NCBI RefSeq assembly: GCF_900090195.1
Contig: NZ_LT607803.1
Coordinates: 2,170,001-2,234,000, forward strand
Source of the DNA: Variovorax sp. HW608
Lineage (GTDB): Bacteria > Pseudomonadota > Gammaproteobacteria > Burkholderiales > Burkholderiaceae_C
Direction: 5' to 3'
Length of the DNA stretch: 64,000 nucleotides
The notes beneath the pieces are model-generated. The model saw only the letters and a list, made by a program, of their open reading frames with translations, searched no databases and was not told the origin of the DNA. Shown here in pieces: positions 46,499 through 62,410 of the stretch. The stretch's first letter is position 1. Each line of letters starts with the position of its first letter. The translations under genes and the position numbers were made by a program.

Positions 46499-46557
46499 GC
46501 GCTTCATGCCGCCGAGCACCTTGGCGTCGATCAGGCCGCGGGTGGCCTTAGGCGGAC

Positions 46558-47424: not shown

Positions 47425-47427
47425 AGT

Positions 47428-47448
47428 TCAATTTTACTGATGGATTGA
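47428..47448. promoter_or_regulatory. Candidate LysR operator in the sulfur-module promoter
   Basis: TCAAT and ATTGA form a 5-bp inverted repeat with an 11-bp spacer, starting 4 bp upstream of the lysR start codon and 82 bp before the dioxygenase start. The position fits an autoregulatory LysR site, but the match is short. Confidence 0.35.
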
Positions 47449-47529
47449 CTGACAGTACTGCATTGATCGGGGCGGCGTCGCTTCGTACAGTGCGGCTAGA
47501 TTTCCCCACCGGAACAAGAGGAGCACCAG

Positions 47530-48114
47530 GTGTCCATCACCATCGAAGAGCGCGCGCAGGCAGTCCAGTCCGCGATCGCGCGAATGAAGTCCATCATCGG
47601 AACGAGCGGCCCCGACCGCGCGAAGCTGCAACAGGTGCTGGCCACGTTGCTGGAGCTTGCGTCCCGTCGCGAGTTGTGGTCCGGATTCGAGGCACCGGAG
47701 CCGGGTGAGCACCAGAATCGCTACCTGATCGCGGAAGACTCGGACCAGAGCTACGCGCTTTATCTCAACGTTATGCGGCCGGGCAAGAAGATCGTCCCGC
47801 ACGACCATACGACCTGGGCCTGCATCGCCGCAGTGGAAGGTACGGAACACAACCGCGTCTACGAACGGCTCGACGAAGGCAATGTGCCGGGCATTGCGCG
47901 CTTGCGGGAGCGCGAATGCATCGTGGTCGCACCGGGAGCCGGCATCGCGCTGATGCCCGACGACATCCACTCTGTCGAGATCCGGGGCGATCAGGTGATC
48001 CGTCACTTGCACATGTATGGCCGCGCCCTGGAGACGCTGGACCGCCGCACGGCCTTCGATCTGGTCGCCGGCACCTGCAAGACGATGGATATCGGCGTGC
48101 AAACGCGCCGCTGA
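47530..48114 (+). CDS. Cysteine dioxygenase-family thiol dioxygenase (cupin)
   Basis: The protein has 194 aa from a GTG at 47530, with GAGGAG 9 bp before it. The 3-His iron site is visible as H91 and H93 ([16 protein letters not shown]) and H147 (MPDDIHSVE). The second-shell Ser-His-Tyr region reads HLHMYG, with H161 and Y163 kept but His in place of Ser. Such enzymes oxidise cysteine, 3-mercaptopropionate or mercaptosuccinate to sulfinates. The substrate here is not determined; the rhodanese and lyase that follow point to organosulfur catabolism. Confidence 0.82.
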
Positions 48115-48126
48115 ACCGGAAACATC

Positions 48127-49725
48127 GTGACTGCAACGATTTCCCCTCTGATCCTCAAGGCCTGGCTGCACGATGGCGGCGAGATCGCGCTGCTGGACGT
48201 GCGCGAACACGGCCAGTTCGGCGAATCGCACTTGTTCTATGCCGTCCCGCTGCCCTTCAGCCGCCTGGAGCTGGACATCTGGCGTCTCGTCCCCCGCAAC
48301 AGCGTGCGCTGCGTGGTCTACGACAGCGGCGCTCACGATAGCTTCGACGTCGCACGGCGGGCCGCAGCCCGCCTGGAAGCGCTCGGCTGGACGAACGTGT
48401 GCGTGCTCGAAGGCGGCACCCGCGCGTGGCAGGCTGCGGGATACGCGCTTTTCGCCGGTGTGAACCTGCCGTCCAAGAGCTTCGGCGAATTGGCGGAGCA
48501 CGCCTATCGCACGCCGCGCATCAGCGCGGACGACCTGGCGCAACGGCTCGCCAGGGGCGAGCAGCTCGTGGTGCTGGACGGCCGGCCGTTCAGCGAGTTC
48601 CGCAAGATGAACATCCCGACGGCACTGTGCTGCCCAAACGGCGAACTTCCATATCGGATCAAATCGATCGTGCCGGACGAGAGTACGCCGATCGTGGTGA
48701 ACTGCGCCGGACGCACGCGCAGCATCATCGGCGCGCAGACGCTGATCAACCTCGGCCTGCGCAATCCGGTGTACGCGCTCGAGAACGGCACCCAGGGCTG
48801 GTACTTGCGCGACCATGCGCTGGAGCACGGCGGCACGCGAACCTATGCGCCGGACAGCGGTACGACCGTGCTGCGCGACAACGCACGAAAGCTGGCGGCG
48901 CGCTTCAGCGCAGCAAGCGTTGACGCCGCCACCGTGCGCGAGTGGGCCGCGCAACACGACCGCACCTTGTACCTCTGCGACGTCCGCATGCCCGAAGAGT
49001 TCGCGCAGGGCAGCCTGCCCGGCGCGCAGCACACGCCCGGCGGGCAGTTGATGCAGGCGTTCGATCAGTACGTCGGGGTTCGCGGCGCCCGCCTTGTGCT
49101 GTTCGATGACGACGGCGTCCGCGCGCCCACTGTGGCGAGCTGGCTGCGGCAGATGGGGCATGAGGCGTGGGTGCTGCAAGAAGGCCTGGCCAGTGGCCTC
49201 GCGCTGCCGTCGCGGACTGCAACGCAGTCGCCGCCTGCACCGGCCCGCATCGACGCAATCGAAGCCGCTCGTCTTGCCGATCGGCACGAGATCGCCATCA
49301 TCGACCTGCGCGGCAGCATGGAATTCCGCAAGGCCCACATCGCGGGGGCGACATGGACGATCCGTCCGCGCCTGGCTGAAGCCCTGCGCGACGAACGCCG
49401 CCCGGTCGTGATCGTTGCGGATGACGACGCCGCAGCGCGATGGGCCGTGGAAACCGAATGGCCGCAGACGCTGCCGCAGCCGCTGCTGCTCAAAGGCGGC
49501 TTGCCCGCGTGGCGGCAAGCGGGCCTGCCCGTGGAAGCGACAACTGGCACGCCGCCAGATGCGGACTGCATCGACTTCCTCTTCTTCGTGCACGATCGCC
49601 ACGATGGCAACAAGGAGGCCGCGCGCCGCTATCTCGCGTGGGAGACGGGATTGGTGGCACAACTCGACGACCAGGAGATCGCCGCCTTCCGGCTGCCCGC
49701 GGCGGAGCGCTCACATGACCGATGA
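48127..49725 (+). CDS. Four-domain rhodanese-like sulfurtransferase
   Basis: The protein has 532 aa from a GTG at 48127. Four rhodanese folds are seen at about 5-108, 132-232, 263-358 and 374-470. Only the second keeps a catalytic cysteine, C193 in IVVNCAGRTRSIIG. The matching loops of the others read VVYDSGAH, LVLFDDDG and VIVADDDA. Thus three domains are probably structural or regulatory. It likely transfers sulfane sulfur released by the neighbouring lyase or binds sulfite or persulfide products. It starts 12 bp after the dioxygenase gene and overlaps the lyase gene by 11 bp. Confidence 0.85.
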   Translation: MTATISPLILKAWLHDGGEIALLDVREHGQFGESHLFYAVPLPFSRLELDIWRLVPRNSVRCVVYDSGAHDSFDVARRAAARLEALGWTNVCVLEGGTRAWQAAGYALFAGVNLPSKSFGELAEHAYRTPRISADDLAQRLARGEQLVVLDGRPFSEFRKMNIPTALCCPNGELPYRIKSIVPDESTPIVVNCAGRTRSIIGAQTLINLGLRNPVYALENGTQGWYLRDHALEHGGTRTYAPDSGTTVLRDNARKLAARFSAASVDAATVREWAAQHDRTLYLCDVRMPEEFAQGSLPGAQHTPGGQLMQAFDQYVGVRGARLVLFDDDGVRAPTVASWLRQMGHEAWVLQEGLASGLALPSRTATQSPPAPARIDAIEAARLADRHEIAIIDLRGSMEFRKAHIAGATWTIRPRLAEALRDERRPVVIVADDDAAARWAVETEWPQTLPQPLLLKGGLPAWRQAGLPVEATTGTPPDADCIDFLFFVHDRHDGNKEAARRYLAWETGLVAQLDDQEIAAFRLPAAERSHDR

Positions 49726-50905
49726 AGCGGATCGCAAGGGCCGGGGATTGCAGACGCGCCTGGTTCAGGCGGGCAAGGATGGGGTCTCTTCCGGCGGCCA
49801 TGCGGTGAACCCACCGCTGGTGCGCGCCAGCACGGTGCTTTTCGCGGATACCGCGCAGCAGCGCGACATGCGCTCACGGCGCGACAGCGAGCGACTCTTC
49901 ACCTACGGCGCCCGCGGCACGCCGACCACCTTCGCGCTTGAAGACGCCGTGAGCGAGCTGGAGGGCGCCTATCGCACGCGCCTTTTCCCGAGCGGCCTCG
50001 CGGCCATCGGCTTCACGCTCCTGGCTTACCTCAAGCCCGGCGACGATTTGCTCATGTCGGATGGCGTGTACGAGCCGGCTCGCGCATTGGCGAGGAGCTT
50101 CCTGGAGCCCTACGGCATCCGCACGACGTTCTTCGCAGCGGATGGGTCCGACCTCGAACAGCGCTGGCAAGCCGGCACGCGCATGGTCTTTGCCGAATGC
50201 CCCGGATCGCTTGTCTACGAGATGTGCGACCTGCCGGAACTTGCGCGATTCGCCCACGGGCGGGGCGCGCTGGTCGCCGCCGACAACACCTGGGGCTGCG
50301 GGGTGCTTTACCGCCCGCTGGCGCTGGGCGCCGACATCTCCGTGACCGCCGCCACCAAGTACCTGTCGGGTCACTCCGACGTGACGATGGGGACCGTCTC
50401 GACGACGAAGGACGTGTGGCAGCCCCTCCAACAGCGCTGCGAGGCATTCGGCATGACTGCGAGTCCTGACGACGCCTGGCTGGTGCTGCGCGGAATGCGC
50501 TCGCTCGCGCCGCGGCTGCAGATGCACGAGCAGCATGCCTTGCAGGTGGCTCAATGGCTCGCCGGGCGTGCCGAAGTGCGCGCCGTGTTCTGTCCGGCGC
50601 TGCCGGCCGACCCGGGCCACGCGCTGTGGAAGCGGGACTGCACCGGCACGAACGGACTGCTCTCGATCGAACTGCAGCCAGGAACCGGGCCAGCGGCTGT
50701 CGACCGCTTCATCGACAGCCTGTCCTTGTTCGGCCTCGGCGCATCCTGGGGCGGCTACGAAAGCCTGGTGACGGCCGCCAACATGCAGCGCGCGCGCTCC
50801 GTCACGGACTGGAGCGCACGCGGTCCGGTAGTGCGCCTGCACATCGGGCTGGAAGACCCGGTGGACCTGATCGCCGACCTGGGTCGAGGCTTCGCCGCCC
50901 TCTAG
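49715..50905 (+). CDS. metC: Cystathionine beta-lyase-type PLP enzyme
   Basis: The protein has 396 aa. It belongs to the Cys/Met-metabolism PLP family: VNPPLVRASTVLF and YGARGTPTTFALEDAVSELE bind substrate and PLP, DNTWGCGVLYRPLALGADI gives the PLP aspartate, and K215 in TAATKYLSGHSDVTMG forms the Schiff base. SWGGYESLV near the C-terminus is typical of beta-lyases. It cleaves C-S bonds in cystathionine, cystine or related thioethers. The position after the thiol dioxygenase and rhodanese suggests a catabolic rather than methionine-biosynthetic role. Confidence 0.85.
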   Translation: MTDEADRKGRGLQTRLVQAGKDGVSSGGHAVNPPLVRASTVLFADTAQQRDMRSRRDSERLFTYGARGTPTTFALEDAVSELEGAYRTRLFPSGLAAIGFTLLAYLKPGDDLLMSDGVYEPARALARSFLEPYGIRTTFFAADGSDLEQRWQAGTRMVFAECPGSLVYEMCDLPELARFAHGRGALVAADNTWGCGVLYRPLALGADISVTAATKYLSGHSDVTMGTVSTTKDVWQPLQQRCEAFGMTASPDDAWLVLRGMRSLAPRLQMHEQHALQVAQWLAGRAEVRAVFCPALPADPGHALWKRDCTGTNGLLSIELQPGTGPAAVDRFIDSLSLFGLGASWGGYESLVTAANMQRARSVTDWSARGPVVRLHIGLEDPVDLIADLGRGFAAL

Positions 50906-50953
50906 CACACCGACTGGCCCTTCATCAATCCACCGATAACGAGGAGACCTCAC

Positions 50954-51955
50954 ATGCCTTCCAACCATGTCGCGAATCGGCGCGAGTTCGTCGCAACTCT
51001 CGGTGCCGCGCTCAGTTCGCTGGCCCTGCCTTCGCTGGCCAACGTGCTTCCGCGCGCAGGCGACTTCCCGAGTCAGCCGATCCGGCTGGTGTCTCCGTTC
51101 CCGCCGGGCGGTGGCAATGACTTCCACTTACGGCTCGTCTCGAACGAGCTTGCGCAAGTCACCGGGCAGCAAGCGGTCGCCGACAACCGCGGGGGTGCGG
51201 GCGGCAATATCGGCACAAAGTACGTGGCCGATGCCAAGGCCGATGGCTACACCGTCCTGCTGTCGCAGGTTTCGATCATGGCGGTCAACCCCACGCTGTA
51301 CAAGGCGCCCGGCTTCGATGCGGTCCGCAGCTTCTTGCCGATCACGCAGGTCAATGCGGCGCCGATTGCAGTCGTTGTGCCCGCAGCTTCTCCCATCAAG
51401 TCCATCGCCGACCTGCGTGCCGTCTCGAGGAGTCACGCGGTGACATACGCATCGCCCGGCAATGGAACGCTGTCGCATCTGCTGGGCGTCGTGCTCGAGA
51501 AGGACGCGGGGATCAACCTGACGCACGTGCCATACCGGGGTGCGGGGCCTGCGCTGGCCGACGTATTGGGTGGCCAGGTCCAGGTGTTGATCACCTCCAC
51601 TTCTTCCGTCGCGGGGTACATCAACCAGGGCAGCCTGCGCGCACTGGCAGTGAGCAGCCCGCGGCGAGTGGGCGTCTTCAAAAGCGTACCGACCCTTGAG
51701 GAGCAGGGCTTCAAGGACATGACCTACGACGACTGGTATGGCTTCTTCGCGCCGGCCGGCACATCCCTCGACCGCGTGGCGTACCTGCACCGCGCGATCA
51801 CGACCGTGCTCAGCAGCCCGACCGTCAGCCAGAAGATCCTCGACGCGGGCGGCGAGCCGGTGGCCGGTACGCCTGAGCAACTGGCCGATCAATTGCGGCA
51901 GGACGTGGCGCGGTGGAGCCGCATCGCCAAGTTGTCGGGAGCGGCGCTCGATTAA
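50954..51955 (+). CDS. Bug/TctC-type periplasmic solute receptor (sulfur module)
   Basis: The protein has 333 aa. The N-terminus has a twin-arginine-like signal (NRREFVATLGAALSSLALPS). The Bug fold shows PIRLVSPFPPGGGNDF, ADNRGGAGGNIGTKYVADAK, TYASPGNGTLSHLLGVVL and VPYRGAGPALADVLGGQVQV. Such receptors bind carboxylates or amino acids for tripartite TctAB permeases or sensing. It ends the dioxygenase-rhodanese-lyase unit and probably binds the sulfur-containing acid. No tctA or tctB is present. Confidence 0.9.
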   Translation: MPSNHVANRREFVATLGAALSSLALPSLANVLPRAGDFPSQPIRLVSPFPPGGGNDFHLRLVSNELAQVTGQQAVADNRGGAGGNIGTKYVADAKADGYTVLLSQVSIMAVNPTLYKAPGFDAVRSFLPITQVNAAPIAVVVPAASPIKSIADLRAVSRSHAVTYASPGNGTLSHLLGVVLEKDAGINLTHVPYRGAGPALADVLGGQVQVLITSTSSVAGYINQGSLRALAVSSPRRVGVFKSVPTLEEQGFKDMTYDDWYGFFAPAGTSLDRVAYLHRAITTVLSSPTVSQKILDAGGEPVAGTPEQLADQLRQDVARWSRIAKLSGAALD

Positions 51956-52021
51956 ACCGGATGCCGGCGCGAGAGCGTCTGGCGTTTGGTGAGCGAGCAG
52001 TGCTCGATCCCTGCGCTCATT

Positions 52022-52804
52022 TCATAGTTTGCTGCGGAAGTTTGGTTTGCGTTTCTGCAGGAATGCCTCCACCCCTTCGTGGGATTCGGGAGTGTTGTAG
52101 TACAGAGCCAGCGCCTGCATCCCCAGCGATGCGATACCGCGGATGGAGTCCGAGTCAGCATTGAAGGATCGCTTTGCGATCGCGATGGCTGTGGGACTCT
52201 TCTCCATGATCTCGGCACACCACTTCTCCACTTCCTCATCAAGCTTGTCGTGCGGCACGACCGCGTTGACCAGACCCATTTCCAGCGCCTCCTGCGCGCT
52301 GTAGCGTCGACACAGATACCAGATCTCCCGAGCCTTCTTCTCGCCGATCACGCGGGCGAGGAAGGCCGTGCCGAACCCGGGATCCACCGAACCGACCTTG
52401 GGGCCAACCTGCCCGAAGATCGCCTTGTCCGAGGCGATCGCCAAGTCACAGCAGGTGACCAGCACATTGCCCCCGCCGATGGCGAATCCATTCACCCGCG
52501 CGATCACGGGCTTGGGCACCTCACGGATGAGTCCCTGCAACTCCTCGACCGGCAGGCCGATCACGCCCCGGCCGTCGTAGCCGCCGTCGTGCGCTGACTG
52601 GTCCCCCCCGGTACAGAAGGCTTTGTCGCCGGCGCCGGTAAGGACGATTGCACCGATCGACTTGTCCCATCCCGCTCTATGGAGCGCATCGATGAGTTCA
52701 TCGCAGGTCCTGCCTCGGAAGGCGTTGTATTTCTCGGGCCGATTGATACGCAGGGTGGCTACGCCGTCCTTCACGGCGTATTGGATATCGGTGTAGTCAG
52801 GCAT
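52022..52804 (-). CDS. badI: 2-Ketocyclohexanecarboxyl-CoA hydrolase-like ring-cleaving enzyme (BadI)
   Basis: The protein has 260 aa from the ATG at 52804. It is a crotonase-fold protein that matches the BadI pattern: KAFCTGGDQSAHDGGYDGRG, VPKPVIARVNGFAIGGGNVL, FGQVGPKVGSVDPGFGTAFL and GEKKAREIWYLCRRYSAQEA. MenB shares parts of these, but no other menaquinone gene is near and the BadI motif with GGYDGRGVIGLP fits better. BadI hydrolytically opens 2-ketocyclohexane-1-carboxyl-CoA to pimeloyl-CoA. It is divergent from the CoA-transferase unit, with paired repeats between. Confidence 0.85.
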   Translation of the reverse strand: MPDYTDIQYAVKDGVATLRINRPEKYNAFRGRTCDELIDALHRAGWDKSIGAIVLTGAGDKAFCTGGDQSAHDGGYDGRGVIGLPVEELQGLIREVPKPVIARVNGFAIGGGNVLVTCCDLAIASDKAIFGQVGPKVGSVDPGFGTAFLARVIGEKKAREIWYLCRRYSAQEALEMGLVNAVVPHDKLDEEVEKWCAEIMEKSPTAIAIAKRSFNADSDSIRGIASLGMQALALYYNTPESHEGVEAFLQKRKPNFRSKL

Positions 52805-52874
52805 TCGGTGCTCTTTCAGGAACAAGGGATTGGGGGAGGAAACCGCCACCTTTTCGAGGTAACAGGCCCATATT

Positions 52875-52903
52875 GTTCACATAGTCGACCATGATTCATA
52901 TAT
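52875..52903. promoter_or_regulatory. Repeat site A in the badI / CoA-transferase divergent promoter
   Basis: The site starts GTTCACATAGTCGACC, continues ATGATTCATATAT and lies in an AT-rich 181-bp gap. It has a close direct copy at 52936-52965. The shared pattern is GTTC-2-ATAGTCGACC-2-GATTC-1-TA. Two like sites in a divergent promoter suggest a common regulator, possibly the IclR protein at 60383-61237. Confidence 0.5.
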
Positions 52904-52935
52904 AGGTACTTCCCCTGATGTTTTGGACGCTCATC

Positions 52936-52965
52936 GTTCGTATAGTCGACCCAGATTCTTAAATA
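52936..52965. promoter_or_regulatory. Repeat site B in the badI / CoA-transferase divergent promoter
   Basis: GTTCGTATAGTCGACC followed by CAGATTCTTAAATAT matches site A, 61 bp away in the same orientation. It ends 21 bp before the CoA-transferase start codon, where a repressor would cover the promoter. Confidence 0.5.
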
Positions 52966-52985
52966 TGAACTTTGGAAAGAGGAAT

Positions 52986-54230
52986 ATGGCCGGACCGTTA
53001 TCCCGCGTGCGCGTGCTGGATCTGACTCGAGTGCTGGCGGGGCCTTGGTCAACACAGATGCTTGCGGACCTCGGCGCCGATGTGATCAAGGTGGAGCGCC
53101 CCGTCCTCGGCGACGACACCCGCCATTGGGGACCTCCCTGGATCAGGGACGAATCCGGCGAGCCGACGACGGACTCGGCGTATTTCTCTTCCACCAACAG
53201 GAACAAGCGCTCCATCGCCGTCGACATCTCGAAGCCGGATGGGCAGCGCCTGATCAAGGATCTCGCGAAAAACTGTGACGTACTGGCCGAGAACTACAAG
53301 GTCGGCGATCTCAAGCGCTATGGCCTGTCGTACGAGGACCTGAAGGTCGTCAACCCAGCTCTGATCTATTGCTCGGTCACCGGCTACGGTCAGGACGGCC
53401 CTTACGCCGAGAAGCCCGGCTACGACTTCATCTTCCAGGGTGAGGGCGGCTTGATGAGCATCAATGGCGAGGAGGACGGCAAGCCCGGCGGTGGCCCGAT
53501 GAAGACTTCGATCGCAATCACCGACGTCCTGACGGGCCTGAACGCGACCATCGCCATCCTTGCCGCACTGGAGCACCGTCGCAACACGGGTGAAGGTCAA
53601 CACATCGACGTCTCGCTGCTGGACACGATCGTGCACTTTGGCTCCAACCAGATCGCCAGCTACTTCACCACGGGCGAGGTACCCAAGCGTTGGGGTAATG
53701 CCCATCCCAATCTCACGCCGTACCAGTCGTTCCGTACGCGTGATGGGCACTTCATCGTCGCCTGCGGCAACGACGGGCAGTTCGTCAAGCTCTGCGCAGC
53801 ACTCGGACAGGAGCATCTGGCCCAAGACCCGCGCTTCGCCCGCATGGCCGATCGCAATCTCAACCGGGAGCCTTTGATTGCCCAGCTCTCGACCATCTTC
53901 GAGCTGGAGACGACAGCCTTTTGGTTGAAGACCTTGGAGCACAGCGAGGTGCCCAATGGAAGCATCAATACGTACGACAAGGTCTTCGAGCATCCGCAGG
54001 TCGTGGCCCGCGAGCTCAAGGTTTGCCAGCGGCATGCCGCCGGTGGAGCGATCACCACCGTAAGGAACCCCATTCGCCTATCGAAGACGCCGATCGAGTA
54101 CCTGCGGCCACCGCCACTGCGCGCAGAGCACACGCACGAGGTTCTTTCGAGCGTGCTCGATCTGTCGGAAGACGCACTCAGGCAGCTCGAGGTTTCCGGG
54201 GTTATTGAAACAGCGAAGAAGGATAGGTGA
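52986..54230 (+). CDS. CaiB/BaiF-family CoA-transferase
   Basis: The protein has 414 aa. I chose the ATG at 52986, 3 nt after GAGG; an ATG at 52965 is also in frame. Family III CoA-transferase features are RVRVLDLTRVLAGPWSTQML, ADLGADVIKVERP, NRNKRSIAVDISKPDGQ and GEGGLMSINGEEDGKPGGGP. The catalytic Asp should be the one in KPGYDFIFQGE. It is the first gene of the plus-strand unit and would activate an alicyclic carboxylate by taking CoA from a donor such as succinyl-CoA or a pathway product, replacing an ATP-dependent AliA ligase (inference). Confidence 0.88.
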   Translation: MAGPLSRVRVLDLTRVLAGPWSTQMLADLGADVIKVERPVLGDDTRHWGPPWIRDESGEPTTDSAYFSSTNRNKRSIAVDISKPDGQRLIKDLAKNCDVLAENYKVGDLKRYGLSYEDLKVVNPALIYCSVTGYGQDGPYAEKPGYDFIFQGEGGLMSINGEEDGKPGGGPMKTSIAITDVLTGLNATIAILAALEHRRNTGEGQHIDVSLLDTIVHFGSNQIASYFTTGEVPKRWGNAHPNLTPYQSFRTRDGHFIVACGNDGQFVKLCAALGQEHLAQDPRFARMADRNLNREPLIAQLSTIFELETTAFWLKTLEHSEVPNGSINTYDKVFEHPQVVARELKVCQRHAAGGAITTVRNPIRLSKTPIEYLRPPPLRAEHTHEVLSSVLDLSEDALRQLEVSGVIETAKKDR

Positions 54231-54237
54231 GACAAGC

Positions 54238-55386
54238 ATGTACTACGCATTGACAGACGACCAGCGGCAGATACAAGACCTGCTTCGGAGGGTGGCCCGA
54301 GAAAAGGTGGCCAAACGGGCGGACGAGATTGACCGTACGGCCGAGTACCCGCACGACATGTACGAATTGCTCAAGGAACTGGGGCTTTTCACGCTGCCAT
54401 TTCCGCCCGAGTACGGCGGCACGGGCAGCATGCTGTCGGCGTGTATTGCCATCGAAGAGCTGGCGCGCGTTTGCTACAACACCGCCTACCTGCTGCTGGT
54501 GCAGTGGGTTCCCTTTGGCGCGATCCTGCACGGCGGCACCGCCGAGCAGAAGCAAAGGTTGCTTCCCGGCCTAGCGTCCGGAGAAATGCGGGGTGCGTTT
54601 TCGACGACGGAGGCGCAAAGCGGATCCGACGTCAGCGGGATCCGCACGCGCGCCGTGAAGGTGGCGGATGGCTACCGGATCAATGGCGCCAAGATTTGGT
54701 GCACGAATTCCGACTTGGCCGATTTCGTCCTGGTAGCCGCCAAGTACGAGCAGGGTGGGAAGGACGGGATCAGCCTGTTCATCATCGAAAAGGGCGCAGC
54801 TGGCTTCACGGTCGGGAAGAAGGAGGAGAAGATTGGCGCGCGTGGCGTGCCCTCCTGCCCGCTCTTTCTGGACGACGTGTTCGTCCCAGACATCAACCTG
54901 GTCGGCGGCGGATTCAAGGCCGTGATGGAAGCCTTCAACGCCAGCCGGCCCCTCATCGGCGCACGCGGCGTGGGCCTGGCCCAGGGTGCCATCGACCACG
55001 CCAGCGCCTTCGTCAAGGAGCGCCACGCCTTTGGCCAGCATGTTTCCGACTTCCAGGGCGTGCGTTGGATGCTTGCCGACATGGCGATCCAGACCGAGGC
55101 CGCGCGCAATCTGGTCTATCGCGCCGCATCGATGGTCGACCAATCTTCGCCGAGTGCGGAACTCGCGCCTGTCGCCGCAATGTCCAAGTGCTTTGCCAGC
55201 GACACGGCGATGAGGGTGGCCACCGACGCTGTGCAGCTCTTCGGCGCTGCGGGCGTGTCCGCGGAGTACCCGATCAACAGGTACTTCCGAGATGCCAAGG
55301 TGCTCCAGATCATCGAAGGCACCAACCAGATCCAGCGAAACATCGTGGCCAACAGCCTGCTCGGCCGCGTCCCTCGTTCCAACTGA
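54238..55386 (+). CDS. Acyl-CoA dehydrogenase (AliB-like position)
   Basis: The protein has 382 aa. ACAD motifs are FSTTEAQSGSDVSGIRTRAV, IWCTNSDLADFVLVAAKY, ERHAFGQHVSDFQGVRWMLA and the C-terminal YFRDAKVLQIIEGTNQIQRN with the catalytic glutamate in IIEGTNQ. It introduces an alpha,beta double bond in an acyl-CoA and passes electrons to ETF. It starts 7 bp after the CoA-transferase gene and should act on the cyclic acyl-CoA that gene produces. Confidence 0.9.
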   Translation: MYYALTDDQRQIQDLLRRVAREKVAKRADEIDRTAEYPHDMYELLKELGLFTLPFPPEYGGTGSMLSACIAIEELARVCYNTAYLLLVQWVPFGAILHGGTAEQKQRLLPGLASGEMRGAFSTTEAQSGSDVSGIRTRAVKVADGYRINGAKIWCTNSDLADFVLVAAKYEQGGKDGISLFIIEKGAAGFTVGKKEEKIGARGVPSCPLFLDDVFVPDINLVGGGFKAVMEAFNASRPLIGARGVGLAQGAIDHASAFVKERHAFGQHVSDFQGVRWMLADMAIQTEAARNLVYRAASMVDQSSPSAELAPVAAMSKCFASDTAMRVATDAVQLFGAAGVSAEYPINRYFRDAKVLQIIEGTNQIQRNIVANSLLGRVPRSN

Positions 55387-55406
55387 TCTCTTCCAAAGGA
55401 AAACAC

Positions 55407-55889
55407 ATGAGCGACTACAACATGCCGACAGTCGGCTTGGGCCTGTACTTCGAGGACCTGCCGGTCGGCCGAAAGTTCAAGACCCTCGGCCGCACCGTGA
55501 TGGATGCCGACATCTGCGCGTTCTGCAACGTGATCCACATGACCGAGGTCCTCTTCACGGACATGGAATTCGTGAAGAACGAGTCGGACATCAAGGGACG
55601 CATTGCACCGGGCGCCTTCATCTACGGCATCGCCGAGGGCCTGCTGGCTCAGTCGACCATGCAGAAGACCGGCTACGCCTTCCTCAATATGGAGCTGACC
55701 GTGCACAGCCCAGTCTTCGCGGGTGACACCCTGCACGTCGAGTGCGAGGTGATCGAGTCGCGCGCGTCGAAGAGCCGGCCGGGCCGCGCACTCGTGCGCA
55801 CGGCCAACAAGGTTGTGAACCAGAAGGGGCAGGTGGTGTTGAGCTACACGCCGCTTCGCATGGTCAAGTCCAAGGCCGTGGCTGCCTGA
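55407..55889 (+). CDS. MaoC-like enoyl-CoA hydratase
   Basis: The protein has 160 aa. Hotdog/MaoC features are LGLYFEDLPVGRKFKTLGRT, MDADICAFCNVIHMTEVLFT, GRIAPGAFIYGIAEGLLAQ and HSPVFAGDTLHVECEVIES. The usual D...H hydratase pair is weak here: the region has N and H in CNVIHMTEV, so catalysis may differ from classic MaoC. Its position between the dehydrogenase and BadH genes makes it the likely hydratase in place of crotonase-type BadK. AAAGGA precedes the ATG. Confidence 0.8.
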   Translation: MSDYNMPTVGLGLYFEDLPVGRKFKTLGRTVMDADICAFCNVIHMTEVLFTDMEFVKNESDIKGRIAPGAFIYGIAEGLLAQSTMQKTGYAFLNMELTVHSPVFAGDTLHVECEVIESRASKSRPGRALVRTANKVVNQKGQVVLSYTPLRMVKSKAVAA

Positions 55890-55918
55890 TCGCTCAACCG
55901 CACCCAAAGGAGCCAAGC

Positions 55919-56686
55919 ATGAATGGACTGAAAAACCGGGTTGCCGTGATCACCGGGGGCGCAGGCGGCATCGGCGCAGCGCTGTGCCGCAGGATGAACG
56001 AGGAGGGCGCCAAGGTCGCCATCCTGGACCTGAACAAGGACGCAGCCACTTCGCTCGCCGATGAGTTGGGCCGCAGCGGCGTAGCGGCCAAGGCCTACGG
56101 CCTGGACATCACCGATTACGAGCAAGTCGAAGTGACGATCGCAGACATCGAGGCCACTCTCGGGCCGGTTGAGATCCTGGTCAACAACGCTGGCTGGGAC
56201 CACGCCGCTCGCTTTGTGGACACCAATCCGCAACTCTGGCAGAAGCTCATCGCGATCAACCTGGTCGGACCGCTGAACCTGCAGCACACCGTGGTCAAAC
56301 GCATGATCGCCCGCGGCGCAGGAAGGATTGTGAACGTGTCATCTGATGCCGGCCGCGTCGGCTCGTCGGGGGAATCCGTCTATTCGGCATGCAAGGGCGG
56401 AATCATCTCCTTCTCCAAGACTCTCGCCCGTGAAGTCGCCAGGAAGCAGATTACCGTCAATGTGGTCTGCCCAGGTCCCACCGAGACAGCGCTGTTCCGC
56501 GATTTCGCCGGTGCCGGCGAGTCGGGCGACAAGCTGCGCGGCGCGCTTGCGAAGGCCATTCCCTTCGGCCGCCTGGGCCAGCCGCAGGACGTGGTGGGAG
56601 CAGTGTGTTTCCTCTCATCGGACGACGCCGCGTTCATCACCGGCCAGGTGCTGTCCGTGTCGGGTGGCCTGACGATGGCGGGCTGA
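55919..56686 (+). CDS. badH: 2-Hydroxycyclohexanecarboxyl-CoA dehydrogenase-like SDR (BadH)
   Basis: The protein has 255 aa. VAVITGGAGGIGAALCRRMN, EILVNNAGWDHAARF and the catalytic S142, Y155 and K159 in VGSSGESVYSACKGGIISFS are complete. The pattern NNAGWD, GSSGExVYxACKGG, NVVCPGPTETALF and ITGQVLSVSGGLTM is that of BadH from Rhodopseudomonas palustris as I know it. BadH oxidises 2-hydroxy- to 2-ketocyclohexane-1-carboxyl-CoA, the substrate of BadI. AAAGGAG lies 8 nt upstream. Confidence 0.88.
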   Translation: MNGLKNRVAVITGGAGGIGAALCRRMNEEGAKVAILDLNKDAATSLADELGRSGVAAKAYGLDITDYEQVEVTIADIEATLGPVEILVNNAGWDHAARFVDTNPQLWQKLIAINLVGPLNLQHTVVKRMIARGAGRIVNVSSDAGRVGSSGESVYSACKGGIISFSKTLAREVARKQITVNVVCPGPTETALFRDFAGAGESGDKLRGALAKAIPFGRLGQPQDVVGAVCFLSSDDAAFITGQVLSVSGGLTMAG

Positions 56687-56728
56687 GCAGCGGCAGCCAT
56701 TCACCAAGAAATATCAAGGAGACTACAC

Positions 56729-57709
56729 ATGAGCCTGAAAGCCATTGCCAGATCGTTGCTGGCCGCTGTTGGCATCGGCATGGCATGGACTCCAGCGTCG
56801 CATGCCCAGGAGGCGTATCCCGCCAAACCGATCCGTCTGGTGCTCGGGTTCGCCGCCGGTGGCGGCACCGACGTCATCGCACGTGCCCTGGCTCAACGGA
56901 TGGGGGAACTCCTTGGCCAGCCAGTCATCGTCGATAACAAGGCGGGCGCCAACGGAAACATCGCTGCCGAGACAGTGGCGCGCGCCACGCCTGACGGCTA
57001 CACACTGCTCTACAACACTTCGTCCATCGCGATCAGTCCAGCGCTCTATCCCAAGCTGTCCTACGACGTCAGCAAGGACCTGGTGCCGGTCTCGCCAACA
57101 GCCAACTTGCCAATCATCCTGGTCGCAGCGAAGAATCTCGGCCTGAAGTCAGCGCAGGATTTCGTCGCGTATCTAAAGGCTCACCCCGGGCAGTTGAACT
57201 ACGCCTCCGCGGGTAACGGAAACATCACCCACCTTTCGGCGCTCTTGTTCCTGCAGGCAACTGGTACCAAGGCCACGCATATCCCTTACCGCAGCGAGGC
57301 TCCGGCGATCACGGATGTGGCGGGCGGCCAAGTGGCGTTCTATCTGGGCACTGCTCCCGGGGTGACCCCGCTGATGAAGGATGGCCGCGTACTGGGACTG
57401 GCCGTGGCATCTCTCAAGCGGATGCCGACCGCTCCAGAGCTCCCTACCATGTCGGAGACTGTGGCCAAGGACCTTGAGTTGGGTGCCTGGTCGGGCATCA
57501 TGGCGCCCGCCGGCACGAGGCCTGAAATCATCGACAAGCTCAACGCGGCCGTCGGGACGGCGCTGAAGGACAAAGCGCTTCTGGAGAAATTCGCGATGCA
57601 GGGTGCCGAGCCACGGCATGGCACGCCGTCGCAGTATGGCGCATTCATACAGTCCGAGCTCTTGCGCTGGTCCCAGATCATCCGCGCCAATGGCGTACGG
57701 ATGGATTAA
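56729..57709 (+). CDS. Bug/TctC-type periplasmic solute receptor (alicyclic module, first)
   Basis: The protein has 326 aa. The signal peptide ends at ASHAQEAYP. PIRLVLGFAAGGGTDVIARA, VIVDNKAGANGNIAAETVAR, NYASAGNGNITHLSALLF and IPYRSEAPAITDVAGGQVAF show the Bug fold. It lies 42 bp after badH and most likely presents the alicyclic or aromatic-derived carboxylate to a TctAB permease encoded elsewhere. Confidence 0.92.
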   Translation: MSLKAIARSLLAAVGIGMAWTPASHAQEAYPAKPIRLVLGFAAGGGTDVIARALAQRMGELLGQPVIVDNKAGANGNIAAETVARATPDGYTLLYNTSSIAISPALYPKLSYDVSKDLVPVSPTANLPIILVAAKNLGLKSAQDFVAYLKAHPGQLNYASAGNGNITHLSALLFLQATGTKATHIPYRSEAPAITDVAGGQVAFYLGTAPGVTPLMKDGRVLGLAVASLKRMPTAPELPTMSETVAKDLELGAWSGIMAPAGTRPEIIDKLNAAVGTALKDKALLEKFAMQGAEPRHGTPSQYGAFIQSELLRWSQIIRANGVRMD

Positions 57710-57718
57710 GCAAGGGAA

Positions 57719-58168
57719 ATGTCCAGGATGACTCGCTTGAACGAGGAGCAGCTGCAGGCGGTTGTCGATCGGTCGTCGTTCAATCGCTGGCTAGGGATGA
57801 AGGTTGTGTCCGTCGGCGAGAGCAACTTGACCTTGCGAATCAGTTGGCGCGACGAACTGATCTCCAGCCCGGAAAGGCAGTCGATCCACGGCGGGGTCAT
57901 CGCCGCGCTGGTCGACTGCGCAGCGGACTACGTGATCGCGGCGGACGTAGGCCACGCGGTGCCGACGATCGATCTACACATCGACTATCACAGGATCGCC
58001 CTGCCAGGCGACCTCGAGGTCGAGGCCAGCATCACGCATCTCGGTTCCACCTTGGGCGTCGCGACGGCCAAGGTCACGGATGCGCAGGGCAAGCTCGTTG
58101 CCAGCGGCAGAGGCCTCTACATGACAGGGGCCCGACCTCTGTCGCCGCCCCCCGCCGCGGCGAATTGA
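57719..58168 (+). CDS. PaaI-type hotdog thioesterase
   Basis: The protein has 149 aa. The hotdog core shows FNRWLGMKVVSVGESNLTLR, SIHGGVIAALVDCAADYVIA with the HGG(V/A)...D catalytic pattern of PaaI thioesterases, and TIDLHIDYHRIALPGDLEVE. It would release CoA from dead-end acyl-CoAs of the pathway. The ATG at 57719 is 10 bp after the receptor gene; an ATG at 57728 is also possible. Confidence 0.85.
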   Translation: MSRMTRLNEEQLQAVVDRSSFNRWLGMKVVSVGESNLTLRISWRDELISSPERQSIHGGVIAALVDCAADYVIAADVGHAVPTIDLHIDYHRIALPGDLEVEASITHLGSTLGVATAKVTDAQGKLVASGRGLYMTGARPLSPPPAAAN

Positions 58169-58203
58169 GCCGGATCCACCACCCATTGACACGAAAGAGA
58201 ATC

Positions 58204-59187
58204 ATGAAGAGCAGCCGCAGACAAATCTGCAAGAGGCTTGGCGCGATCGCCCTCGGTTTTGGCATGGTGCTGCCAGCGGCCGCCCAGGACAAATGGCCCA
58301 CACAGCCTATCAAGCTGGTCGTTCCCTTCGCGGCAGGCGGTGCGACGGACCAAGTCGCTCGGCTTGTCGCCTCGAAGATGGGCACGATACTGGGCACCAC
58401 AGTCATCATCGACAACCGCACCGGAGCAAATGGCAACATCGGCGCCGAGCTTGTCGCGAAGGCGGCGCCTGACGGCTATACCTTTCTCCACACCACCTCT
58501 TCCATCGCGTTTACTGCCGCCTTCAGGCAGAAGGTCCATTACGACCTGTCGAAGGATCTCCAGCCGGTGACGCTGGCGGTCAATCAGCCGCTGCTGATCA
58601 TGTCCAGCCTACAGTCCGGCGTCGTCGATGCAGCGACCCTGCGGCAGTACCTTCGCAAGAACGACAACAAGGTCAGTTACGCCTCATCGGGCAACGGCAA
58701 CCTCACGCATCTGGCCATGTATGTCATCCTGCATGCGCTGGGGGCCGATGCGACGCACATTCCTTACAAAGGGGGCGCCGCAGCTTTCCCGGACGTCATC
58801 GCCGGACGTGTCGACCTGTTCTCCGATCCCATCAATTCCGCCTTTCCGCATGTGCGCGAAAAGCGGGTCACCGCCCTGGCAGTCACGGGCGCGAAGCGTT
58901 CGGCACTTGCACCGGATGTACCGACGGTCGATGAGTCTCTTCTGCCTGGTTTCACCATTGGCGCCTGGCAGGCGGTGTTCGCCCCCGCGGGCACGTCGCC
59001 GGAGATCGTCGCGAAGGTGCGGCAAGCCTACCGAGCCGCACTGCGGGATCCTGCCATCAAGGCCAAGTTGGCTTCCGAAGGAGCGGAGGCAGTGGGCTCC
59101 TCAGGCGAGGAATTGAAGAGCTTCATGGATGCCGAGATCAAACGCTGGGAGAAGGTGGTACAGACCTCCGGCATCAAGCTGGATTAG
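58204..59187 (+). CDS. Bug/TctC-type periplasmic solute receptor (alicyclic module, second)
   Basis: The protein has 327 aa from the ATG at 58204. The signal peptide MKSSRRQICKRLGAIALGFG ends near AAAQDK. PIKLVVPFAAGGATDQVARL, VIIDNRTGANGNIGAELVAK, SYASSGNGNLTHLAMYVIL and IPYKGGAAAFPDVIAGRVDL are typical. It is similar in layout to the receptor at 56729, suggesting an old duplication and separate ligands. It is followed by the second CoA-transferase gene. Confidence 0.92.
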   Translation: MKSSRRQICKRLGAIALGFGMVLPAAAQDKWPTQPIKLVVPFAAGGATDQVARLVASKMGTILGTTVIIDNRTGANGNIGAELVAKAAPDGYTFLHTTSSIAFTAAFRQKVHYDLSKDLQPVTLAVNQPLLIMSSLQSGVVDAATLRQYLRKNDNKVSYASSGNGNLTHLAMYVILHALGADATHIPYKGGAAAFPDVIAGRVDLFSDPINSAFPHVREKRVTALAVTGAKRSALAPDVPTVDESLLPGFTIGAWQAVFAPAGTSPEIVAKVRQAYRAALRDPAIKAKLASEGAEAVGSSGEELKSFMDAEIKRWEKVVQTSGIKLD

Positions 59188-59229
59188 CCGCGCCACACCA
59201 TTCGTCAATCACTCTGGGAGAACCAAGGC

Positions 59230-60375
59230 ATGGGTCCGCTGCAGGGAGTCAAGATCATCGAGCTCGCGGGAATCGGTCCCGCACCCTTCGCGGCTATGCT
59301 GCTGGCCGACCTGGGCGCGACGGTGATACGGATCGATCGACCCGTTCCGGCTCGACTCGGTATCGAACGCCCCCTAGAGTTCAACCTGCTGTTGCGCAAC
59401 AGGCAGAACCTGTCGATCGACCTCAAGAGCGAGGCGGGCAGGGAATTGGTCCTGGAATTGGTGCAAAAGGCGGATGGCCTCATTGAAGGGTTTCGACCCG
59501 GCGTCACGGAGCGCCTGGGGCTGGGCCCCGATCCCTGCCTGGCCTGCAATCCGCGACTGGTGTATGGGCGGATGACGGGATGGGGCCAGGAGGGCCCATT
59601 GGCGCAGGCCGCCGGACACGACCTCAACTATATTGCTGTGACGGGGGTCTTGTCCTGGATCGGCCGATGCGCTCAAGAGCCGGTGCCTCCTCTCAACCTG
59701 CTCGGCGATTTCGCGGGAGGCGGACTCTATCTGGCGCTCGGCATGCTCGCCGCCATGCTGGAATGCCGCACGTCCGGTCGCGGCCAAGTGGTCGACGCCG
59801 CCATCGTCGATGGCACTGCGTCCTTGGCTACTTCGGCATTCGGTATGCACGCTGCGGGCCTACTTGGGGCACGGGGCACCAACATCCTCGATGGTGGTGC
59901 GCCGTTCTATGACGTGTACCGCTGCAAGGATGACAAGTACATCTGCGTTGCATCCATCGAGCCAAAGTTCTACGCAGAGCTTTGCAAGTTGCTCGGGCAT
60001 TCGTCCGAGGAAATCGGGCTCCAGCAGGACCGACAGGCATGGGACACTTCGAAGGAGAAACTTCGGCAGATCTTCGAGTCCAGGACCCGGAACGAATGGT
60101 GCGCGTTGCTGGAGGGGACTGATGCATGCTTCTCGCCCGTGATGGAGCCCGACGAGGCAGCCTCGCATCCGCATCTGAAGGCACGTCAAACCTTCGTGGA
60201 AGTGGCGGGCGTGACGCAGCCGGCCCCGGCGCCGCGCTTTTCCCGCAGCGCGCCAGATGAGCCAAAACCTCCGGAGGCGCCGAGCGAGCGCAGCAGCCTG
60301 GATGCCCTGCGCAACTGGCTGGGAGAGGATGGGGCGAACAGATGGTCCGGTCAGATTGCGCGGACCGGCGTTTGA
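59230..60375 (+). CDS. CaiB/BaiF-family protein, alpha-methylacyl-CoA racemase-like
   Basis: The protein has 381 aa. GPLQGVKIIELAGIGPAPFA, LLADLGATVIRIDRP, FNLLLRNRQNLSIDLKSEAG and EGFRPGVTERLGLGPD are the N-terminal pattern of AMACR-type members. GHDLNYIAVTGVLSWIGR contains the family Asp and the AMACR-like context. It would epimerise 2-methylacyl-CoAs or transfer CoA. In this module it may set the stereochemistry of a branched side chain before dehydrogenation (inference). GGGAGAACCAAGGC precedes the ATG. Confidence 0.85.
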   Translation: MGPLQGVKIIELAGIGPAPFAAMLLADLGATVIRIDRPVPARLGIERPLEFNLLLRNRQNLSIDLKSEAGRELVLELVQKADGLIEGFRPGVTERLGLGPDPCLACNPRLVYGRMTGWGQEGPLAQAAGHDLNYIAVTGVLSWIGRCAQEPVPPLNLLGDFAGGGLYLALGMLAAMLECRTSGRGQVVDAAIVDGTASLATSAFGMHAAGLLGARGTNILDGGAPFYDVYRCKDDKYICVASIEPKFYAELCKLLGHSSEEIGLQQDRQAWDTSKEKLRQIFESRTRNEWCALLEGTDACFSPVMEPDEAASHPHLKARQTFVEVAGVTQPAPAPRFSRSAPDEPKPPEAPSERSSLDALRNWLGEDGANRWSGQIARTGV

Positions 60376-60382
60376 GGCCGCC

Positions 60383-61237
60383 TCAGGATCGCCGGCCGGC
60401 CGGCCTGTACGTGCGCGCGTTCGCGAGCGCCCGCGATGCCCGGCCGGCGACATCGATGACGAGTTCGCGCATCTTGGGCAGCGACTTCGCCATCCGATCT
60501 ATCGGGGCAGCAAGCAGCAAGGCATGAGAGACCTGACCCATTCCGTCAACGAGGGGCGCGGCGATGCCCGCCGCCCCCTCCACGGCCTGACTCAGACTGA
60601 TGGCACAGCCATCCTCGCGGATCTTGTGCAGATCCTGGCGCAGTTCCTCTATCGCGACAACTTCGCCGGTGACGGGACTGTTGAAAGGGCCCGTGGACAG
60701 GAAGGACTCGATCCACTCAGGCGTTTGATACGCCAGCAAGACACGGCCCGCAGCGGACACGAACAGAGGTCGGACCGCGCCGACTCCGACGGCGTATCGG
60801 ACGGCCTGCCGGCTTTCAATAGCGTCGATGTACGAGACGATGCGGTGCTGCCGGTCCAGAGCAGTGAGATATGCGCTTTCGTCGCTCTGGCTGGCCAGCT
60901 CTTGCAGGAAGCCATGCGCGAGGCTGGTGTAGGAATGGCCCGCCATGAGATTCATGGACAACTGCAGGATGGCCGGGCCCGGCCGGTAACGGCCTGCCGA
61001 GTGGACCAAATAGTCCGATCCCACCAGCGGGCGCAGAAGCGCCAACAAACTGCTCTTCGGCGAGTTCAACACCTGGCTCAATTCCGTCAACGTCATGCCC
61101 TCCTCGACATTCGCGAGAGTCTCGAAGATGTTGAGGACCCGAACCAGCGAACGCGGGCTGCGAGAAAAAGGATCAGGGGTGGCCGCCTCGGCGTGGGCGG
61201 GAATCTCATCCGAAGCGGGTCTTTGAGTCATCTGCAT
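60383..61237 (-). CDS. IclR-family transcriptional regulator
   Basis: The protein has 284 aa. The N-terminal winged HTH reads SLVRVLNIFETLANVEEGMT and LTELSQVLNSPKSSLLALLR. The GAF-like effector domain follows from about residue 95 and ends with AIDRMAKSLPKMRELVID-type helices. It converges on the racemase-like gene and is divergent from the reductase gene at 61320. A near-perfect palindrome sits 4 bp before its start, fitting autoregulation. It is the only regulator gene in the alicyclic module and so the best candidate to control it. Confidence 0.9.
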   Translation of the reverse strand: MQMTQRPASDEIPAHAEAATPDPFSRSPRSLVRVLNIFETLANVEEGMTLTELSQVLNSPKSSLLALLRPLVGSDYLVHSAGRYRPGPAILQLSMNLMAGHSYTSLAHGFLQELASQSDESAYLTALDRQHRIVSYIDAIESRQAVRYAVGVGAVRPLFVSAAGRVLLAYQTPEWIESFLSTGPFNSPVTGEVVAIEELRQDLHKIREDGCAISLSQAVEGAAGIAAPLVDGMGQVSHALLLAAPIDRMAKSLPKMRELVIDVAGRASRALANARTYRPAGRRS

Positions 61238-61241
61238 GGGG

Positions 61242-61259
61242 AAATGAACTACTTCATTT
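61242..61259. promoter_or_regulatory. Palindrome before iclR (candidate autoregulatory operator)
   Basis: AAATGAACTACTTCATTT has perfect 7-bp arms around a 4-bp spacer. It starts 4 bp upstream of the iclR start codon and 60 bp before the divergent reductase gene. IclR-family sites are often dyads of this size overlapping their own promoter. Confidence 0.55.
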
Positions 61260-61319
61260 TATCGAAGACCTCTCTTCACCAACCGGTCTGCGACAGCATC
61301 GCAATCACGATTGTCGAAC

Positions 61320-62348
61320 ATGAGAAACATTGACTGCATCTGCATCCTGGGTCCGAATCGGCCGGGCGCATCTCTTCTTAGACGGCCCCTGTCGGCGACA
61401 ACCCCAGGCAGTATCGTTGTACGAGTCGAATACGCGGGATTGAACTACAAGGACGCGTTGGCGACGATGCCCGATTCCAAGGTGTTGCGTCACTTCCCCC
61501 GCATCGGTGGCAGCGACTTCTCCGGCGTCGTGGTGGAGTCCTTGGACCCTTTCTTTCGGCCGGGCGACAAGGTGTTCTCCTGCGCGAATGGGCTTGGTGT
61601 GGATCGGGATGGCGGGTTTGCCGAATTCGTAAGAATCGACGGTACCCACCTGCGACATCTACCCGCCGCGTTGTCCGCCTTTGAGATATGCGCCCTGGGC
61701 GTCGCCGGGATTACGGCCGCGCTTTCCCTTCACCTTCTGGAGGCGCAGGGGCTCGTGTGCGGAGCGGGGCCCGTGCTCGTCACGGGCGCCACTGGCGGCG
61801 TCGGCACCATGGCCATCGAGATGCTGGCCCGTCTGGGCCACGAGGTGATCGCACACACTGCAAAGCCTGAGATGCGGCAGCACCTGCTCGACCTCGGGGC
61901 CTCGGACGTGATCAGCACGACCGCAACCGAACGTCCCGGGAAGCCGCTCGAACGCGCAACCTGGGCCGCGGCCATCGACACCATCGGCGGCGATGGCCTC
62001 GATCTGATGATCCGGCGGATGATGCCCAGGGGCTGCATCGCCAGTGTGGGCAACGCGGCCGGAAACACCTTCGCGTCCAACCTTCTGCCCTTTATCCTGC
62101 GAGGCGTCAGGATCATCGGCGTCAACCTTACCGAGTACGCGGAACTGATGGACACACTGATGGCGAGGCTCGCCGACGAGCTCAAGCCGGTCCGAGCCCT
62201 CGGTCTCACGCAGATCGTTGACATGGAGGACGTCCCGCACATGCTCAACGCCATGCTGGAACGAAGAACGACGGGGCGCATCGTGATGCACCCGTTTCCC
62301 ACCGGGCGCACGGCCTCGTGTGGGTTTCAATCAAGAAAAGGACCCTGA
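61320..62348 (+). CDS. Zinc-independent MDR enoyl-CoA reductase (AcuI/YhdH type)
   Basis: The protein has 342 aa from the ATG at 61320. It is a medium-chain reductase without zinc cysteines. VRVEYAGLNYKDALATMPDS, FPRIGGSDFSGVVVES, GLGVDRDGGFAEFVRI and VLVTGATGGVGTMAIEMLAR match the YhdH/AcuI (acryloyl-CoA reductase) group. It would reduce an enoyl- or acryloyl-CoA with NADPH. Its stop is 2 bp before the ATG of the truncated crotonase gene, so both once formed an operon divergent from iclR. Confidence 0.85.
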   Translation: MRNIDCICILGPNRPGASLLRRPLSATTPGSIVVRVEYAGLNYKDALATMPDSKVLRHFPRIGGSDFSGVVVESLDPFFRPGDKVFSCANGLGVDRDGGFAEFVRIDGTHLRHLPAALSAFEICALGVAGITAALSLHLLEAQGLVCGAGPVLVTGATGGVGTMAIEMLARLGHEVIAHTAKPEMRQHLLDLGASDVISTTATERPGKPLERATWAAAIDTIGGDGLDLMIRRMMPRGCIASVGNAAGNTFASNLLPFILRGVRIIGVNLTEYAELMDTLMARLADELKPVRALGLTQIVDMEDVPHMLNAMLERRTTGRIVMHPFPTGRTASCGFQSRKGP

Positions 62349-62350
62349 CG

Positions 62351-62410
62351 ATGAGCGCAGAACTGACCATTCACGACGACATTGCGCTAATCACACTACA
62401 CCGGCCCGAA
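62351..62410 (+). pseudogene. First 20 codons of an enoyl-CoA hydratase gene, truncated
   Basis: The frame begins MSAELTIHDDIALITLHRPE, the typical start of a crotonase (strand I then HRPE/NRPE). It follows the reductase stop by 2 bp, like a normal operon gene. After the GAA at 62408-62410 the sequence becomes the SDR 3' tail in another frame and the crotonase is lost. This is one half of a fusion scar. Confidence 0.7.

Follow-up and report, generated by a model that had tools for sequence, protein, structure and literature searches.

A candidate second, divergent operon for alicyclic ring opening alongside the canonical bad-ali cluster of Variovorax sp. HW608

The window analyzed here is a stretch of 64,000 nucleotides from the genome of Variovorax sp. 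HW608 (single contig, 7.73 Mb; G000:C1:2170001-2234000), and the genes in question lie between position 52022 and about 62.4 kb of it. At roughly even odds (about 50%), these genes form a second, divergent alicyclic ring-opening operon that would run parallel to a canonical bad-ali cluster in the same genome and would probably serve a substituted (alkyl- or methyl-branched) cyclohexanecarboxylic acid. An earlier note on this DNA had claimed six genes at 52022-57709 (a BadI-like hydrolase facing a coenzyme A (CoA)-transferase, an acyl-CoA dehydrogenase, a MaoC protein, a BadH-like dehydrogenase and a Bug receptor), and open reading frames and profile matches place all six there. The unit extends past 57709 with a thioesterase, a second Bug receptor, a racemase, an IclR regulator, an MDR (medium-chain dehydrogenase/reductase) oxidoreductase and a crotonase stub. 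Its gene content, homologies, active-site residues, synteny with related loci and one truncated gene can be read directly from the DNA. The features are as follows (positions in the window, strand, identity and evidence).

52022-52804, minus: BadI-type 2-ketocyclohexanecarboxyl-CoA hydrolase (TIGR03210 score, GPKVGSVDPG motif, tree)
52805-52985, no strand: divergent promoter region (two 40-nt direct repeats and the palindrome TTCTTAAATATGAAC at 52956-52970)
52986-54230, plus: family-III (CaiB/SUGCT-like) CoA-transferase, proposed activator (PF02515, 423.3 bits)
54238-55386, plus: acyl-CoA dehydrogenase, proposed 1,2-dehydrogenation of the ring acyl-CoA (best model NF043006)
55407-55889, plus: MaoC-like hot-dog protein lacking the Asp/His dyad (PF01575 fold, active-site alignment)
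55919-56686, plus: BadH-like short-chain dehydrogenase (SDR) (TIGR03206 score; starred clade with canonical BadH)
56729-57709, plus: Bug/TctC periplasmic receptor (PF03401, 234.3 bits)
57719-58168, plus: PaaI-type hot-dog thioesterase (TIGR00369, 83 versus cut-off 36.6; syntenic in loci L038, L040, L042 and L062)
58204-59187, plus: second Bug/TctC receptor (PF03401, 210.8 bits)
59230-60375, plus: alpha-methylacyl-CoA racemase, AMACR/MCR type (398.8 bits to PDB 8rmw, 398.5 to 1x74 MCR)
60383-61237, minus: IclR-family regulator (PF01614, 92.8; PF09339, 29.9)
61311-62348, plus: MDR oxidoreductase of the YhdH/acrylyl-CoA reductase family (TIGR02823, 320 versus 297.25)
62351-62410, plus: crotonase stub, first 20 codons, complete in related units (comparison with those units)
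62411-62510, plus: duplicate, 100 bp long and 97% identical, of the SDR gene 3' end at 46261-46360; joined directly to the crotonase stub

The hydrolase scores above the curated NCBIfam cut-off for BadI (TIGR03210, 474.3 versus 467.6 bits), and three MenB models score it at 348.5, 318.8 and 234.9, each under its own cut-off. It carries the motifs GGGNVL and GPKVGSVDPG, which recur with small changes in the other BadI-type rows; the compared MenB chains read GPKVGSFD. In a first tree (38 rows, long rows kept), the fork holding the window protein was not resolved. In a second tree of 30 rows, from which long and redundant rows were left out and to which three MenB chains were added, the window BadI falls in a starred five-row clade (99/97) with the proteins of L062, L159, L040 and L048; the BadI of the strain's canonical cluster belongs to a separate starred clade of six canonical rows (99/99). 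A branch dividing BadI as a whole from MenB is recovered at 68/73, without a star. The earlier note had named a grouping of the hydrolase with MenB as the outcome that would speak against its BadI assignment, and this grouping, with the exact rows picked after the 38-row tree, is rejected when forced (p-AU, the p-value of the approximately unbiased test, 0.0025). No menD gene above cut-off was found in the genome (best 94 versus 244.2 required). The assignment as BadI-like therefore stands, and the protein is predicted to hydrolyze 2-ketocyclohexanecarboxyl-CoA. The SDR likewise bears out its description as BadH-like. In a tree of 59 of the 61 collected rows (with several long-branch warnings among the non-BadH rows), it lies in a starred 19-row clade (98/96) nested in a starred 25-row clade (96/96) that also contains canonical BadH (L029, L164, L165), and not apart with other SDRs. 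The nearest SDRs outside the 19-row clade are those adjoining BadI in L159, L160 and L030 (89/81, not starred), and SDRs of the 19-row clade directly adjoin BadI in two further genomes (L166, L168).

The remaining enzymes depart from the canonical set. No ligase is present in the unit, and a family-III CoA-transferase takes the place of AliA, as the earlier note had claimed for it. This transferase scores 468.7 on NF052585 (cut-off 750) and matches PDB entries 4ed9 (346.2 bits) and 9br6 (341.7 bits), and it is SUGCT-like, with succinyl-CoA as the proposed donor. The acyl-CoA dehydrogenase has NF043006 as its best model (331.2 versus a cut-off of 650) and is rejected as AliB by its TIGR03207 score, which is below the cut-off (173 versus 575.35). 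The second CaiB-family protein is a racemase by its match to solved racemases, with His, Asp and Glu conserved in an alignment with MCR (residues that we take to be His126, Asp156 and Glu241 of MCR), which suggests a methyl-branched substrate or product. The MDR oxidoreductase scores 242.3 on the AcuI model NF051456, under the cut-off of 440.

Family chemistry suggests a likely substrate, a set of enzyme activities, a reaction order, a CoA donor and a mode of regulation for the unit. The acid would be captured by a Bug receptor and receive CoA from succinyl-CoA through the SUGCT-like transferase; the acyl-CoA dehydrogenase would then carry out 1,2-dehydrogenation of the ring acyl-CoA, and a crotonase would hydrate the product. 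Hydration here could come from the crotonase that occupies BadK's place in the canonical cluster, from another of the many crotonases of the genome, or from the MaoC-like protein that lacks the usual dyad. The resulting 2-hydroxyl would be oxidized by the BadH-like SDR and the ring opened by BadI to a pimeloyl-CoA-type product, with the branched product handled by the racemase, thioesterase and MDR oxidoreductase under IclR control.

Related cassettes show that the arrangement recurs. After selection, 80 loci remained from the 143 MaoC-like relatives, and in eight of these (L038, L040, L042, L043, L048, L051, L052, L062) the transferase, dehydrogenase, MaoC-like protein and SDR occur together at 60% identity or more; a ninth related cassette (L039) lacks only a match to the dehydrogenase. 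Pseudacidovorax (L038), Pigmentiphaga (L040) and Cupriavidus (L062) have a largely similar gene order, apart from individual genes that are absent or relocated. A BadI gene divergent from caiB, together with the same core order, is present in Pigmentiphaga (L040), a Burkholderiales metagenome-assembled genome (L042), an Alcaligenaceae bacterium (L048) and Cupriavidus necator UYPR2.512 (L062); since L040 and L042 are near copies (BadI 256/257 identical), the four records represent three lineages. For 68 MaoC-like loci, at least 1.7 kb of flanking sequence was available on each side. Within 700 bp, 34 of them have a dehydrogenase and 24 a CaiB-family gene; 10 have both and 20 have neither. BadI, at 60% identity or more, is no farther than 6 kb from the MaoC-like gene in only 4. 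Among 399 genomes drawn from the order, a BadI relative (E <= 1e-95) was found in 19 and a MaoC-like relative (E <= 1e-38) in 16, counts of close matches because the best six candidates per genome were scored. These distributions indicate that the MaoC-like family is not specific to ring opening and that the BadI-bearing cassette is one local assembly. In L159 (7617-12926) and L160 (6347-10026), BadI occurs with an OYE/BaiCD-like (OYE/FadH-type; OYE, old yellow enzyme) flavoenzyme and a BadH-like SDR; L159 additionally has an acyl-CoA ligase beside them, and L160 a CoA-transferase. This is perhaps another BadI assembly, for unsaturated or keto rings.

Several observations weigh against assigning the unit to ring opening. 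The SDR is under the curated BadH cut-off (TIGR03206, 382.5 versus 431.2), as are six of its clade mates (385.7-410.8), and the canonical BadH of the same genome scores 485.4. Three syntenic BadI orthologues are narrowly under the BadI cut-off (L040, 461.7; L048, 464.6; L062, 452.0), so that the window BadI type is a sister group straddling it. Of the eight closest cassettes that could be checked (L038 lies at a contig edge), BadI is beside four and is missing from the examined stretch beside the other four (L039, L043, L051, L052). Whole-genome searches of 13 related genomes (E <= 1e-85) recovered a BadI relative in nine, including those of L043 and L051, where it lies elsewhere (70 and 75%), and none in the other four (L038, L039, L052, L054). 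The SUGCT-like transferase may prefer dicarboxylates. In addition, the unit's crotonase is reduced to its first 20 codons, running straight into a 100-bp duplicated fragment.

The scattered occurrence of BadI lends some force to an unlikely alternative, in which the conserved core (CoA-transferase, dehydrogenase, MaoC-like protein, SDR, Bug receptor and racemase) serves the beta-oxidation of some other branched acid, possibly an acyclic one, and BadI is a local add-on extending it to rings in some lineages; a racemase and a thioesterase also suit branched acyl-CoAs. However, the SDR belongs to the BadH clade and not with the other SDRs of its tree, SDRs of the same clade are paired with BadI in L166 and L168 with no MaoC or transferase match beside them, and two of the genomes in which BadI was not found (L038 and L039) are drafts.

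The MaoC-like protein is confirmed as a hot-dog fold (PF01575; structure model with a predicted local distance difference test (pLDDT) score of 82 overall and 46 for residues 1-10), and its active site is altered: the catalytic Asp is replaced by Met (55539-55541) and the His by Phe (55554-55556), with a near-invariant Glu at 55545-55547 and, within the cassette sub-clade, a His at 55536-55538. In 98 distinct MaoC-like sequences, the window's among them, at roughly 40% identity and above (matches of fewer than 110 residues, identical sequences and the window's own copy, L009, left out), the His site is Phe in 98 and Asp is present in none. Among 14 lower-identity rows, His is kept in 11 and Asp in 7, and both are missing in 3. 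Dyad-less variants with GLTGEMF/GLTGEIF occur in L147 and L157, and L148-L155 mostly have LTEELF-type segments at the active site. The missing dyad rules out an ordinary hydratase. A search of 14 cassette stretches with the 11 His-keeping rows (E <= 1e-3) matched only the known gene and found no dyad-bearing partner, although more distant partners could escape it. The earlier note had put the MaoC protein in BadK's place, a claim that does not survive the loss of the dyad across the clade and the presence in six of nine related units of a crotonase with both Glu residues. It is improbable that the protein is a hydratase after all through other residues, to which the near-invariant Glu and the sub-clade His would point; the uniform replacement at both dyad positions and the retained crotonases argue against it, and the dyad-less MaoC subunits named in PMC11321319 (ChsH2, HadA and HadC) operate beside a dyad-bearing subunit. 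A tentative and broader proposal, itself rather doubtful, is that this large hot-dog subfamily, in which the dyad is swapped for the near-invariant Glu, either hydrates ring enoyl-CoAs by a new active-site arrangement or is an obligate acyl-CoA partner of the dehydrogenase. The subfamily is not recognized as such in the literature searched.

Six of the nine related cassettes contain a crotonase that carries both Glu residues of the catalytic type (motifs GGGLE and LPE), located after the MDR or IclR gene in L038, L040, L042 and L062 and upstream in L051 and L052; none was found in the stretches examined of L039, L043 and L048. The roles of these Glu residues are presumably those of rat enoyl-CoA hydratase. 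In the window, the fragment that follows the stub at 62410 is one copy of a 100-bp direct repeat (46261-46360 and 62411-62510, 97% identical), so the block 46361-62410 is bracketed by a short direct repeat, and the right copy of the repeat reaches into the end of a minus-strand gene for a VanA-type Rieske oxygenase (62488-63525). The crotonase looks to have been removed by a rearrangement, and because the unit's own copy is truncated, the pathway would depend for hydration on an enzyme encoded elsewhere in the genome or on the MaoC-like protein. The truncation, together with a drop in GC content in 4-kb bins (61.1-63.6% from 52 kb onward versus 65.0-71.6% earlier), could mean that the locus was recently moved and is decaying, its operon no longer working as a unit. 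This seems improbable: crotonase aside, the reading frames of the unit are open, and the 51 genomic matches to the BadI model, one for the crotonase superfamily, leave room for another crotonase to serve.

The genome also contains a canonical cluster (L029, G000:C1:6478001-6498000) with AliA (953.7 versus 792.3), BadI (514.5 versus 467.6), the canonical BadH scored above and, in divergent orientation, a MarR gene. BadK's place is taken there by a crotonase whose best match is a general enoyl-CoA hydratase model (396.2 versus 396); a model for BadK was not seen in NCBIfam. A piece resembling AliB scores 340.7 bits over profile positions 212-372 with its frame broken upstream; aliB lies in two frames in the assembly (L029:9054-10338, G000:C1:6487054-6488338), either a real break or a sequencing error. 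Given this cluster, the scheme of the earlier note, a CoA-transferase replacing the AliA of R. palustris, holds within the unit and does not hold for the strain, in which the window unit is an extra one. A third BadH-like/BadI-like pair (L030:7551-12044, G000:C1:2751551-2756044) scores 327.4 and 419.6, both under cut-off, and adjoins a thiolase and a partial FadJ-like protein. That the window unit is a redundant copy of the cyclohexanecarboxylate pathway itself is quite improbable: the chemistry is that of the canonical cluster, whose AliB frame appears broken, but AliA, AliB, BadK and MarR have no counterpart in the unit, which has a separate racemase module and an IclR regulator. An extremely improbable alternative, that the hydrolase is MenB with unrelated neighbors, has in its favor identities of 60% to MenB 2iex and 56% to 2uzf and is contradicted by the sub-cut-off MenB models, the rejected grouping and the low menD score.

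The regulator of the unit belongs to the IclR family and is not a MarR-type BadR. Between badI and the transferase gene lie direct repeats (52872-52911 and 52933-52972; 40 nt, 78% alike) with GTCGAC cores, which were not seen in eight related promoters compared. The palindrome TTCDNNNWNNWGAAY is upstream of the transferase in eight of nine promoters compared (window included, site at 52956; missing in L039), and it is a candidate operator of the IclR regulator. It has four matches in the 64-kb window (two of them both strands of the 52956 site) against 0.78 expected, and since the pattern was derived from those same promoters, only its rarity elsewhere is a test. One copy of the BadR operator motif CAAN4TTG lies at 52823-52832, but in the whole window the motif is rarer than chance (2 versus 6.9); L029 has one copy at 11898, near its MarR gene. 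Scans for sigma-70 promoters and terminators gave chance-level results.

Comparison with described systems places the unit near several pathways. The bad-ali pathway (R. palustris, Aromatoleum sp. CIB; PMC9795900) shares BadH- and BadI-like enzymes, an acyl-CoA dehydrogenase and the logic of ring beta-oxidation, acts aerobically too in Aromatoleum sp. CIB, is widely distributed and lacks badK in most Burkholderiales clusters. The window unit differs in having a family-III CoA-transferase for AliA, a non-AliB dehydrogenase, no BadK and an IclR regulator for the MarR-type BadR, and in adding the MaoC-like protein, racemase, thioesterase and MDR oxidoreductase; by AliA, AliB and regulator type, it does not qualify as a bad-ali member. 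The mrc cluster of Castellaniella defragrans (PMC4109377), in which perillyl-CoA degradation is attributed to BadH-/BadI-like (BadKHI-like) proteins, a dehydrogenase and two MaoC-like genes, resembles the unit in its BadH/BadI-like pair, acyl-CoA dehydrogenase, MaoC-like genes and substituted ring. It differs in its 2,4-dienoyl-CoA reductase, hydratase MrcF and proposed ligase activation; no such reductase was found among the eleven unit proteins scanned (the crotonase stub being outside the scan). In the available text on mrc, no family-III transferase or racemase was noticed, and an acetyl-CoA hydrolase/transferase gene lies in the island. The cyclohexanecarboxylate route of Geobacter metallireducens (Kung 2014, cited in PMC9795900) uses a CoA-transferase with succinyl-CoA in the ligase's place, as proposed here, but proceeds by a second dehydrogenation to a diene and entry into the benzoyl-CoA pathway, not through BadHI. 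The thn operon of culture N47 (PMC11659651) also combines a CoA-transferase and an acyl-CoA dehydrogenase on a cyclohexane carboxylic acid, although ThnP is a family-I, intramolecular transferase of an anaerobic naphthalene pathway. ChsH1-ChsH2 and HadAB-type heteromers (PMC11321319) contain MaoC domains that likewise lack the His/Asp dyad but pair with a dyad-bearing subunit, which the 14 cassette stretches did not yield. Also described are a ring hydrolase acting on the isopropenyl analogue, encoded in a limonene operon (PMC12583861), and a prediction of the same steps for 4-methylcyclohexanecarboxylate from scattered genes of Cupriavidus gilardii (PMC4547698). The literature search returned no paper on MaoC plus dehydrogenase plus CoA-transferase for alicyclic acids, nor on 2-ketocyclohexanecarboxyl-CoA hydrolase with an alpha-methylacyl-CoA racemase, which is no proof that these combinations are unpublished.

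Upstream of the unit, positions 46558-51955 contain a LysR gene, a four-repeat rhodanese protein, a Cys/Met-metabolism PLP (pyridoxal phosphate) enzyme and a Bug receptor, and look like a separate sulfur-compound module; a small open reading frame within it (47530-48114) matched no Pfam family at 1e-5.

If the proposed reading is right, the unit would add a CoA-transferase-based, racemase-linked version to the bad-ali and mrc pathways, in a strain that also holds the canonical set and in whose genome three BadHI-like pairs coexist. The analysis also exposes a widespread dyad-less MaoC-like clade, whose reading as a hydratase is doubtful; if the MaoC-like protein does hydrate, it would give the BadH-like SDR a stereochemically different 2-hydroxy intermediate. 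The unit would thereby be relevant to the breakdown of alkyl-substituted ring acids, naphthenic or terpenoid, by soil bacteria.

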